From Glutinoglossum americanum (taxonomy: Eukaryota > Ascomycota > Geoglossomycetes > Geoglossales > Geoglossaceae): a DNA stretch of 64,000 nt. A program made the position numbers and the translations under genes. Of the stretch, positions 49,891 to 53,185 are shown in pieces. The notes beneath the pieces are model-generated. The model did no database searches. It was not told where the DNA came from and saw only the letters and a program-made list of their open reading frames with translations. The stretch covers positions 70,120 to 134,119 of the forward strand of contig JAGHQL010000048.1 of NCBI GenBank assembly GCA_020080175.1, written 5' to 3'. Position 1 is the first letter of the stretch. Each line of letters opens with the position of its first letter.

Positions 49891-51450
49891 ATGAAGAGGT
49901 TCTCAACGGTCGCGTTGCTGACGTCGTGGTGGTTGTTCGGCGCGCCTGCGACGGGAGGAGGGAACAGCTACGACCATGGCGGCGGCGGCCATAGCAGCGA
50001 CCACGATGGCGGGATTTGGCCGTCTGTACCGCAACCGCAAGGCTACGATACGGCTCATGGGGAATTACACTCGGCAGTACCATATACTCCCGTCGTCCCT
50101 ACACCTACAGAGTGCAAGGTGATCGAGACTGAGACGAAGACCGTCACTTCATACAGCACCGTGACTCTACCTCCAGTAACGGTGGTGTCGGGAGCTACAC
50201 AGACCGACACCCTGACTCTACCTCCGATAACGGTTTCGGGAGCTACAAAGACCACCACCATCCCCATCCCGGCCCCTTGCCCGACAAACTGCAGCGTCAA
50301 CTGCAACTTGCCCCCCGACCTCACCTGCAAGCCCACCGGCGACCTCTTCTGTCAGCCCACCGGCCCCGTCGAATGCCTCGACCCTGTCCACTGTCTAGTT
50401 GACAACCTGGTACAGTGCAATGTCACCAACACGGTGGAATGCAAACCTCCCACCAGCCCCATCAACTGCAATTGCACTGGTGGGCCTGTAGACTGCAAGG
50501 CTGTGGACTGCAAGACCGTGGACTGCAAGGCCGTGGACTGCAAGGCCGTCGCCTGCGAAGCCACCACCTGCACATTTCCCCCTCCCTTACCGGTAAACTG
50601 CACCGCGGTGGACTGCAAGGCCGTCTCTTGTGGTGCGGTAGACTGCAAAGCCGTCGCCTGCGAAGCCACCACCTGCACATTTCCCCCTCTCCTACCGATA
50701 AACTGCACCGCGGTGGACTGCAACGCCGTCGACTGCAAACTACCCCCTAAGCCGGTTAACTGCACTGCGGTGGACTGCACCGCCGTCGAATGCAAACTAC
50801 CCCCTAACCCGTTAAACTGTTCCGCCGTGGACTGTAATGCCGTCGACTGCCGCCTCCCCTCCAATGGCACAGTAAACTGCCACATCCCCGCCAACGACAC
50901 GGTAAACTGCAAAGCCACCACCTGCGAAGCCGCCGACTGCAAGGCCGTCGACTGCAAGGCCGTCGTCCCCCCCGACACGACGGTGAATTGCAAGTTACCC
51001 ACCACCCCGCTCAAATGCGACCTGAACACCACGCCCCACGTCTACTGTCTCAACGACGTCTGGAAGATCCTTGCCATCCTCTTTATGGTCTTGTTTGGCT
51101 TACTGTTGCTGGCGGTGATAGTGGCAGCCATGATCTATCTCTGGAGCAAGCGTAGGCGATGTATAGTCTGCGGGAGACGTAATTGTATTTGCGAGGGAGG
51201 ACCGACTTATGCGCAGCCACCGCCACCGCCACCGCCGCAGGAACAGACGTATGGAGATGGAGATGGAGGAGGTCCGTCGCAGCCACCGGGAGGGTACGGC
51301 GGAGACGGAGATGGAGGAGGTCCGTCGCAGAGACCGGGAGGGTATAGTGGAGATGGAAATGGAGGAGGTCCACCGCAGAGATCAGGAGGGTACGGTGGAG
51401 ATGGAGACGGAGATGGAGGAGGTCCGCCGCAGAGACCGGGAGGGTATTAA
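49891..51450 (+). CDS. Cysteine-pentad-repeat membrane protein (unrecognised)
   Basis: I do not recognise this gene. It is a single exon of 519 residues with a type I layout. A signal peptide (TVALLTSWWLFGA, about 5-20) is followed by a Gly/His-rich then Thr-rich stretch (TETKTVTSYSTVTLPP, as in fungal wall proteins). A cysteine-rich ectodomain runs from about 130 to 386, then one membrane helix (about 391-417: ILAILFMVLFGLLLLAVIV). The basic stop SKRRRC and a juxtamembrane cluster CIVCGRRNCIC follow, then a poly-Pro and Gly/Tyr tail with four GGY(G/S)GDGxGGG-type repeats. Cysteines from 202 to 282 fall in one five-residue register (consensus VDCKA); later blocks keep the period with two register shifts. 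NCT/NCS sequons recur. A TATAA lies about 100 bp upstream. Codons are strongly C-ending. Location is inferred as plasma membrane/cell wall interface; function is unknown. Confidence 0.75.
   Translation: MKRFSTVALLTSWWLFGAPATGGGNSYDHGGGGHSSDHDGGIWPSVPQPQGYDTAHGELHSAVPYTPVVPTPTECKVIETETKTVTSYSTVTLPPVTVVSGATQTDTLTLPPITVSGATKTTTIPIPAPCPTNCSVNCNLPPDLTCKPTGDLFCQPTGPVECLDPVHCLVDNLVQCNVTNTVECKPPTSPINCNCTGGPVDCKAVDCKTVDCKAVDCKAVACEATTCTFPPPLPVNCTAVDCKAVSCGAVDCKAVACEATTCTFPPLLPINCTAVDCNAVDCKLPPKPVNCTAVDCTAVECKLPPNPLNCSAVDCNAVDCRLPSNGTVNCHIPANDTVNCKATTCEAADCKAVDCKAVVPPDTTVNCKLPTTPLKCDLNTTPHVYCLNDVWKILAILFMVLFGLLLLAVIVAAMIYLWSKRRRCIVCGRRNCICEGGPTYAQPPPPPPPQEQTYGDGDGGGPSQPPGGYGGDGDGGGPSQRPGGYSGDGNGGGPPQRSGGYGGDGDGDGGGPPQRPGGY
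50542..50733 (+). repeat. Internal DNA duplication in the cysteine-pentad gene
   Basis: About 87 bp starting at 50542 recur with few changes from 50647 (offset 105 bp, 35 codons). Both copies encode AVACEATTCTFPP...NCTAVDC. The nucleotide near-identity suggests recent in-frame repeat gain. Confidence 0.85.
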
Positions 51451-52363
51451 GATAGGGGCAGTTGAAGTGGCTGGAATAGGGAGTTTCTTTTTTCCAAAAT
51501 AATCTAATAATTCACCCACCCCGCCAACGCTCATTTCCTACCTCTCTTCTTCAAATTCTTACACACGCGAGCGAGGCGACGGAGTTACGGTATTTTTCGT
51601 TTACATTCAACGATTCCCAATTACCCTCCATCCTGTCGAAAGTGTTTATAACTTTTGTTTGGATGCTGATATATCCACACACCACCGGTGGGATTTCTAA
51701 TGACTGGGCCATCTGGTCACGCAGAACCAAAGGGTTTGTGGGACCCGAGGAAATGAGGAAGCGTGTGTGTGTGTGCGTGCGTGTATACTCACACGCGGGT
51801 AGTCAAGAACCAAATAAACTTTCCAAGCGCAGGACTAACCAACCCTTGCTTGGGTGGTTTTCGAATTGTACCCCTAACCCCTATCACCCTGAATTTACCC
51901 ATTTTTCGGTGTTGTGCTCCGTAGAGAGTGTGCTATGGTTGTGGTTGTGGTTGTGGTGGTGGTGGGAGGGCCTTGGCGAGCCGAGCGATGGAATTCTCGG
52001 TGGCTGGACAAGACACATGTCAGAAGTAAACAAACGAGAAATATCCCCAACCACCAAGATATTTCAATCGCCAACCACCACCAACTTTGCCAGCCACAGG
52101 GGAATTCGGGTATGCGGAGGACGGGAGGCCTATATGACAGGAGCTCGTGCTCCCAGTTTCCTGTTCTTCTTGCATTTGGATCCTAGACGGAAAAAAAAAA
52201 CCGAAACTACGCTCGAACAAGTTTCCAAGGTGTTTTCGGGGGAGTGTATAGGTCTTTTCTATCTATCTTTGACTCTGAAGAAGGAGGAGCGGATTTTTTC
52301 TGTCGCTTTCTTTGCTCCTTTATCTTTGTCTTTGTGGAGGATATATATATCTTAATCACGACG
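51451..52363. other. Intergenic region with GT and GTGGTT microsatellites
   Basis: This is 913 bp. It has a (GT)n/(GC) tract at 51762-51783 and (GTGGTT)n/GTG repeats at 51934-51968. A long plus-strand open stretch across it (51642-52355) is low complexity and is not called. Confidence 0.55.
51934..51968. repeat. GTGGTT/GTG simple repeat
   Basis: This is a run of GTTGTG and GTGGTG units between the two unrecognised genes. Confidence 0.8.
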
Positions 52364-52470
52364 ATGCGTCTCCCCGCAACAACAGCAACGACGACGACGA
52401 CAATGACAACCCTCCTCCTCGCTATCCTCCTCCGAGCAGCAACGGCCATCCCACTCTCTCGTCCCGCTCC

Positions 52471-52501
<31 letters not shown>

Positions 52502-53185
52502 CCCCGCCAACCTCGGCAATACAAACGCGCACACTACTCCGTCGTCGCTATCGACGGGAGCGATTCCACCACATCATCCGTAACGACCCCCGCGGCAGCG
52601 CCAGAAGCGACAAAGACGGAGACGAGGATCGAGACGAGGACCAAGACCATAGTCGTGAAGATGTCGACGGTGGGGGTAGAGCCCACAACCACAGAGGACA
52701 TGCCGAGAATACCGGATTCGGCGACGCCAACCGCAACCGAGGAGACTCCACCACCTATGACAGAGGCCCTTCCACCACTCCCCACACTACCAGTGGAGGA
52801 GGGGCCACAACCGCCCACAGCCACAGATGACGCTCTGCCCACAGTCCCAACGCACATCCTACCAGCAATGGCAGCCTCCCCACCTCCACCTCCACCTCCA
52901 CCCCCACCGGACGCTCCGACACACGCCCTACCCACGATCGCACACCCACCTCCACCGCTTCCACCGCTCCCAACGCTTAACGAGACAGTCCCAACCACGG
53001 ATACGGCCACCGCTCTACTACCACCTACGGTCCCGACGCAGGTCCTGCCCACGATGGCGAACCTACCACCGCCACCGCTTCGGACAGAGACAGCGTCGCC
53101 GTCCGGCGGGTTGCAAAACGGGACCGCGCCGTTGTTCTTGTTGGGACGGAGACGTGGCGGGGGGTCCGCGGTCGTTGTGTCTTGA
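52364..53185 (+). CDS. Secreted Pro/Thr-rich low-complexity protein (unrecognised)
   Basis: I do not recognise this gene. It is a single exon of 273 residues from the ATG at 52364. The hydrophobic stretch MTTLLLAILLRAATA (starting at residue 14) is a likely signal peptide; the ATG at 52403 is an alternative start. A (CAA)n tract encodes about ten glutamines, then KRAHYSVV resembles a Kex2-type KR site. The rest is Thr-rich (TETRIETRTKT) and Pro-rich. Three imperfect copies of PTxxLPTMA-P6+ (PTHILPAMA, PTHALPTIA, PTQVLPTMA), each followed by poly-proline, make up residues about 160-255. No cysteine and no membrane anchor are seen near the C-terminus. It lies on the same strand and next to the cysteine-pentad gene. 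It could be a wall or hyphal-surface protein; a non-coding low-complexity frame cannot be excluded. Confidence 0.5.

Follow-up and report, generated by a model that had tools for sequence, protein, structure and literature searches.

A five-residue cysteine ladder in a predicted membrane protein of Glutinoglossum americanum, with a similar ladder in bacterial DUF6161 proteins

A cysteine-rich reading frame and its predicted architecture

The window analysed here is a stretch of 64,000 nucleotides from contig JAGHQL010000048.1 of the ascomycete Glutinoglossum americanum, in which Pfam matches mark an RNase H2 subunit (Ydr279), Mcm10, Per1, Rsc7/Swp82 and a GMC oxidoreductase. Downstream of the RNase H2 gene lies an open reading frame at 49891-51450 on the plus strand, which starts with an ATG that has an A at position -3, belongs to an open frame of 537 codons and specifies 519 amino acids, 45 of them cysteines, in agreement with the 519-residue product proposed in a preliminary description of this locus. 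Judging from the open frame, the gene probably consists of a single exon. Further downstream, another frame (52325-53185, plus strand) encodes a secreted-looking product with a hydrophobic N-terminus, a poly-Gln stretch and a Pro/Thr-rich, mucin-like body, for which there was no Pfam match at E <= 0.001.

The membrane-protein architecture suggested in that description is supported by hydropathy, the 19-residue mean reaching 3.34 from residue 393 and 0.98 in a weaker N-terminal stretch (Table 1). A Pfam search with residues 1-136 gave zero matches at E <= 10. The presumed membrane helix is preceded by 41 cysteines, an odd count, so that at least one of them should be free or paired between molecules, and the four cysteines at residues 424-434 might be palmitoylated or bind a metal.

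Table 1. Features of the reading frame and of its opposite strand (positions are those of the window)
Feature	Positions	Strand	Basis or details
Whole reading frame	49891..51450	+	519 aa plus stop; intron not required
Signal-peptide-like N-terminus, residues 1-20	49891..49950	+	Hydropathy; putative A-P-A cleavage site, by eye
Residues 21-129, Gly/His-rich, then Ser/Thr/Val-rich, with T-V-T-L-P-P-type repeats and one Cys (75)	49951..50277	+	Sequence
Irregular V-x-C region, residues 130-195	50278..50475	+	11 Cys; gaps 4, 4, 8, 8, 8, 6, 8, 8, 9, 2
Five-residue Cys ladder, residues 200-357, interrupted by Pro-rich or sequon blocks	50488..50961	+	Cys runs of 6, 6, 3, 3, 3, 1, 4
Two 35-residue (105-bp) units, residues 200-234 and 235-269	50488..50697	+	TRF period 105, 94% matches, TRF phase 50536-50730
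Three 18/19-residue units (about 57 bp), residues 270-288, 289-307 and 308-325	50698..50865	+	TRF period 57, 50695-50850
Predicted membrane helix, about residues 393-417	51067..51141	+	Hydropathy 3.34 at 393-411; far end by eye
Juxtamembrane Cys cluster C-x2-C-x4-C-x-C, residues 424-434, behind a Lys/Arg run	51160..51192	+	Four Cys; Cys positions
Gly/Pro-rich C-terminal tail repeats (48/102 bp), putatively cytoplasmic	51252..51446	+	Tandem-repeat scan
Antisense shadow frame, 226 codons, GTG start, judged not to be a gene	50352..51032	-	ORF list, codon-position statistics

The most conspicuous part of the product is the ladder. Fifteen cysteines (residues 202, 207, 212, 217, 222, 227, 237, 242, 247, 252, 257, 262, 272, 277 and 282) all fall at positions equal to 2 modulo 5, exactly the single register that had been claimed for residues 202-282, and the period is likewise kept after two shifts, at residues 291, 296 and 301 (1 modulo 5) and at 310, 315, 320, 330, 340, 345, 350 and 355 (0 modulo 5). 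The shifts coincide with four-residue proline linkers, and single cysteines lie between and around the runs at spacing five, which are 6, 6, 3, 3, 3 and 4 cysteines long. Within residues 130-390, 19 successive gaps between cysteines are exactly 5, whereas 20,000 composition shuffles of the same residues average 3.1 and never exceed 11; because this null takes no account of the duplications from which the array was built, the excess shows order and not the independent evolution of each cysteine. The ladder contains no C-C or C-x-C pair. Around the 40 cysteines of residues 130-390 the flanks are uniform as well, position -2 being V in 27, position -1 D or N in 24 and position +2 A in 19, and residues 130-195 show a similar V-x-C theme at irregular spacing.

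Ten sequons are present, six of which have the form N-C-T/S (residues 133, 194, 236, 271, 290 and 309), and four of these six (236, 271, 290 and 309) open a block behind a Pro-rich linker, which bears out the earlier remark that many blocks begin in this way. A T or S follows the cysteine in 6 of 11 cases with N before it and in 3 of 29 cases without N (Fisher P 0.007, a value inflated by duplication).

Family searches and the bacterial ladders

No curated family accounts for the cysteine spacing. The 519-residue protein gave no match at the curated cut-offs of Pfam and NCBIfam (for NCBIfam, zero at E <= 10) and none to PHROGs at E <= 1. Among its Pfam matches at E <= 10 there was neither a WSC domain (PF01822) nor DUF6161 (PF19658), and its tail was without any Pfam match. 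Below the cut-off, the Decapeptide repeat region (PF25296) matched weakly at residues 236-259, with E 0.16 for the full-length protein and E 0.0014 for the core, which scored 18.9 bits where 45 would be needed to reach the cut-off. The same profile found zero matches in the fungus's own genome. When the core was compared with PDB sequences, the best matches were LIN-28 chains (E 0.015-0.15), which we take for Cys-Pro coincidences and not for relatives, and 2xt4, an McbG-like pentapeptide protein (E 0.036); 2xt2, of the same kind, matched with E 0.83. The strings AVDCKA, DCKAVDC and CKAVDCK, as well as any mention of DUF6161, were missing from a literature search whose coverage of subscription journals was small.

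Searching the genome itself (25.8 Mb, 317 contigs) with the whole protein and with residues 366-440 revealed no paralogue. Residues 197-390 gave five further matches (E 1e-4 to 0.06), which we judged to be simple repeats, one (L005) beside a transposase-like frame and four (L006-L009) within a single tandem array. At L005 (C16), microsatellite-rich frames adjoin a transposase-like reading frame, which we take to be of the MULE type. The pentapeptide profile PF00805 had one match in this genome that passed its cut-off (23.4 bits versus 20.2); we do not regard the 141-codon repeat frame containing it as a pentapeptide gene. The suggestion that the locus holds an undescribed system is thus not borne out: there is one gene, with no paralogue in its own genome and no partner genes among its neighbours (Pfam scan, nine open reading frames).

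In a comparison with 5.8 billion proteins, the full-length protein had zero matches at E <= 1 among 7986 scored candidates and residues 366-445 had zero at E <= 1 among 43, searches in which the absence of fungal proteins says little. With residues 196-362, searched in the same way, six of 629 candidates were recovered as matches (E 0.018-6.7), all of them bacterial DUF6161 proteins. It had been stated that no family with such a C-x4-C ladder was known; this stands as far as curated Pfam and NCBIfam cut-offs go, and falls in so far as these six proteins carry a V-D-C-K-A ladder, an observation that is new.

All six bacterial proteins (P0001-P0006) match the DUF6161 profile, contain 12-14 cysteines each and have a nearly identical V-D-C-K-A ladder flanked by two hydrophobic segments, the longest ladders comprising 8-10 cysteines. 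Their cysteine gaps are all 5 or 10, except for a last, distant cysteine in three proteins (gaps of 96, 96 and 91), and the register is maintained exactly even over pentads that have no cysteine. When the six are aligned, P0001, P0003 and P0004 show an extra five-residue unit in comparison with the others, and 11 of the 14 cysteines of P0001 are invariant across the set. Charges flanking the hydrophobic segments suggest that the ladder is periplasmic. A search with P0005 matched 7 of 398 genomes (phylum of G004). Five of these seven gave a DUF6161-like frame (L098, L099, L100, L102 and L103), and all five frames turned out to have no ladder between hydrophobic segments, which makes the ladder look like an insertion confined to one DUF6161 branch. 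The other two, L101 and L104, were rejected as relatives, being simple repeats that merely match the ladder. Phages gave no match to P0005, and two plasmid records did, a Cellulosimicrobium repeat and one from Borrelia. A separate scan for the PF19658 profile found it in 0 of 6 genomes and also in 0 of 14 controls, so that this negative result carries no weight.

The bacterial proteins resemble the fungal one in having V-D-C-K-A pentads flanked by hydrophobic segments, but differ in their coiled-coil-like N-termini, their DUF6161 C-terminus and a register that never shifts in the ladder region, and over the whole protein the likeness is weak (E 0.018 to 6.7). P0006 and the fungal protein have an L-x-D-V-W-K motif ahead of a hydrophobic segment in common, which we judge to be due to chance and not a sign of common descent. 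Since the E-values are weak and the regions outside the ladder offer, this motif apart, no argument for a shared ancestor, the simplest reading of the two sets of sequences would be that their ladders arose by convergence.

Solenoid, wall sensor and minisatellite as alternatives

Pentapeptide repeat proteins (PF00805) share with the fungal ladder the five-residue period, a small residue at -2 and a D or N at -1 of the cysteine, and the luminal pentapeptide domain described for SV2C, a eukaryotic membrane protein, also shares its predicted place on the luminal side of a membrane protein. The ladder might be a cysteine solenoid, that is, a right-handed beta-helix like the quadrilateral one of the pentapeptide repeat proteins, with coils of 35 and 19 residues, in which cysteine takes the inside place of Leu/Phe (or stands at -2) and locks the coils through disulphides or thiol packing; we regard this main rival as rather unlikely. 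With cysteine at the centre, the flanks fit the consensus of 2006, given as [STAV][DN][LF][STR][G] in the account of PMC8145042, at -2 (S/T/A/V in 33/40) and at -1 (D/N in 24/40), and counted by pentads the five positions are fitted by 24, 19, 1, 8 and 0 of 30. The weak matches to 2xt4, 2xt2 and the Decapeptide profile point in the same direction, the latter profile also matching one of three true pentapeptide proteins weakly (E 0.014). So do the DUF6161 ladders, in which an exact register across cysteine-less pentads, with an additional unit of five residues in three of six, hints at a real five-residue structural unit and not at a loose stalk.

A central L or F, the defining feature of PF00805, is found in 1 of 30 pentads in the register that centres on cysteine and in 3 of 27 in the one with cysteine at -2, which speaks against a solenoid. 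The wider consensus of 2019 is fitted better with cysteine at -2 (81 of 135 places) than with cysteine at the centre (72 of 150), and the same register is the better one in all six bacterial ladder proteins, but with L/F still so rare the place of the cysteine is ambiguous. The fungal protein did not match the PF00805 profile at E <= 10, compared with 132-223 bits for three phage members in the same library. As set out in PMC8145042, membership of the pentapeptide repeat proteins takes at least eight contiguous consensus pentads, whereas the fungal ladder has at most 6 pentads in an unbroken cysteine run, or 17 in register if two Pro-rich pentads are counted; Pro blocks break the runs, and the four-residue linkers shift the register twice. 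Moreover, 35 residues amount to seven pentads, which is not a whole number of four-pentad coils. With cysteine in place of L/F and no profile match, the likeness to pentapeptide proteins is confined to the period and the flanks. Single-sequence AlphaFold models of residues 130-390 and 197-362 (mean pLDDT 38.6 and 46.5, both too low to use) placed the ladder strands mostly 19-20 residues apart, with one step of 15 in each, and a Foldseek search with the first of them returned nothing at E <= 0.001; taken together, these results speak neither for nor against a solenoid.

An improbable alternative is a sensor of cell-wall stress like Wsc1 or Mid2, whose outer stalk would act as a spring while the tail signals. 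Wsc sensors are described in PMC9024836 as having an outer Cys-rich part, a single helix and a tail, and the order of these parts matches the outline of the fungal protein, going by hydropathy and cysteine positions and by its predicted topology. However, their Wsc domain, with eight conserved cysteines and a PAN/Apple fold, has no equivalent in the fungal protein, the tail has no Pfam match and the Ser/Thr content of residues 131-390 is modest (34 of 260).

It is quite improbable that the ladder is a by-product of a minisatellite, i.e. an expanded 15-bp repeat with little function at the protein level or, in the extreme case, an unexpressed frame or one lying antisense to the real gene. Spurious ladders do occur. 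Scanning for three pentads of the form [V/A][D/N]-C-x-A turned up 84 loci, 77 of them in genome_contigs and 7 in viral_contigs. At 48 of these the frame has fewer than 100 codons, although 7 of the 48 run into the end of the locus, and in 5 frames a stop codon interrupts the match; many of the loci look like 15-bp minisatellites. A stricter scan, for two V-D-C-K-A pentads, found nothing in genome_contigs and a single locus in viral_contigs, where no reading frame of at least 60 aa is listed on the matching strand. Cys pentads also appear when pentapeptide genes from three phages and a Scytonema plasmid are read in the wrong frame, and in the simple repeats L101 and L104. Among the tblastn records examined, those labelled 'pentapeptide repeat' were three of seven from plasmids (H1, H2 and H4) and three of ten from phages (H10, H15 and H16); the three phage records and H4 (Scytonema) were discarded as relatives, their matches being off-frame from the annotated gene, and the Proteus and Cellulosimicrobium plasmid matches as simple repeats with no annotated gene beneath. 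In these phage and Scytonema pentapeptide genes (L106, 601-981; L107, 601-876; L108, 601-969; L010, 1501-1944) the second-frame Cys ladders (e.g. Q-P-V-R-C) mislead tblastn, and one cyanobacterial assembly has a 15-bp V-N-C-R-A repeat in short frames at six places on four contigs (L097, L036, L048, L065, L067 and L078). Since 15-base repeats and wrong frames also yield ladders, a ladder alone is weak evidence of function, and frame, constraint and context are needed beside it, which the fungal protein has in part.

Tandem DNA repeats found by TRF underlie the ladder (15-bp arrays, a 57-bp array and a 105-bp duplication), and on the evidence of these repeats the ladder has evidently grown by in-frame duplication. 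Three pairs of duplicated units differ at 41 sites, 24 of them third codon positions (pooled P 0.0008; by single pair P 0.11, 0.10 and 0.008, two of the three not significant), and between repeat copies aligned cysteines are kept in 12 of 12 cases versus 44 of 60 for other residues (P 0.056), all P values being optimistic because the copies are not independent. For the two 35-residue units, pS is 0.35 and pN 0.12. The third-position excess, the kept cysteines and a pN/pS of 0.33 in the coding frame, compared with 1.3-2.3 in four other frames, speak against a mere minisatellite, and the excess points to constraint at the protein level.

One antisense frame, with pN/pS 0.37, would agree with the minisatellite explanation. 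This value arises because the third positions of that frame fall on the same bases as the sense ones, and the pN/pS test is therefore unable to separate the two; codon usage in the ladder does not separate them either (-0.156 sense versus -0.140 antisense). On both sides of the ladder the sense frame runs on without a stop, for 147 codons upstream, 18 of which precede the ATG, and for 129 codons downstream, counting the tail repeats; the probability of this by chance is about 0.0067 and 0.0042, respectively. The sense frame is favoured because of these open flanks, the hydrophobic N-terminus and the membrane helix, the ladder thus lying between a signal-like and a membrane segment in one open frame. 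We judged the antisense frame, which has three Pfam matches, every one below cut-off (best E 0.023), to be a shadow, a decision that rests on the regions outside the ladder and not on codon-position statistics.

Finally, a metal-binding surface array or thiol sink, for which the 45 cysteines among 519 residues could be cited, is very improbable given that the ladder has neither C-C nor C-x-C, that no family matches and that the compartment is expected to be oxidising.

The ladder as a stapled stalk outside the membrane

The explanation that we favour, and to which we would give slightly better than an even chance, is that of a wall protein which crosses the membrane once, is probably N-glycosylated and has a repeat stalk, stapled by disulphides, that grew by in-frame duplication. 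The product would be secreted as a fungal surface protein of type I, with its outer part within the cell wall, its one helix as an anchor and the Gly/Pro-rich tail inside. Its outer part would be a repeat stalk of V-x-C units, of which residues 200-357 would have been multiplied in frame by duplications of 15, 57 and 105 bp, and in the oxidising secretory pathway the cysteines would pair with near neighbours. A C-x4-C disulphide closes a six-residue ring, the same size as the ring of oxytocin. The result would be a chain of small staples, with Pro-rich linkers between them and N-glycans at the block starts, and such a stalk might serve as a stiff, protease-resistant spacer that either ties the membrane to the wall or holds it at a distance.

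Besides the open flanks, the hydrophobic segments, the third-position excess with the kept cysteines, and the sequons, two further observations support the stapled stalk. The irregular V-x-C theme at residues 130-195 is easier to reconcile with a tolerant stalk than with a fold that depends on exact register, and the 42 WSC-domain matches in the genome (E <= 0.001) suggest that wall-facing, Cys-rich proteins are at home in this fungus. Full pairing within runs is contradicted by the three runs of three cysteines, which cannot pair completely within themselves.

Overall, the fungal ladder resembles a repeat stalk rich in disulphides more than it does a new system. It is real and unusual, in one gene, and what raises it above an ordinary Cys-rich wall protein is the independent ladder in bacteria. 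We tentatively put forward, as a doubtful proposition, that the V-D-C-K-A five-residue unit could be a building block that recurs in extracytoplasmic stalks through independent evolution, similar in shape to a pentapeptide solenoid and different in descent, which would lock itself by disulphides, grow in frame by 15 bp at a time and have arisen at least once in fungi and at least once in bacteria.

If the ladder is only a Cys-rich stalk, this would be another ordinary, lineage-specific wall protein. Should the pentads, on the other hand, form a genuine structural unit, the ladder would represent a simple, genetically expandable and disulphide-locked rod outside the membrane, with separate origins in fungi and bacteria, which would be of interest for the study of repeat proteins, for protein design and for our understanding of fungal cell walls.
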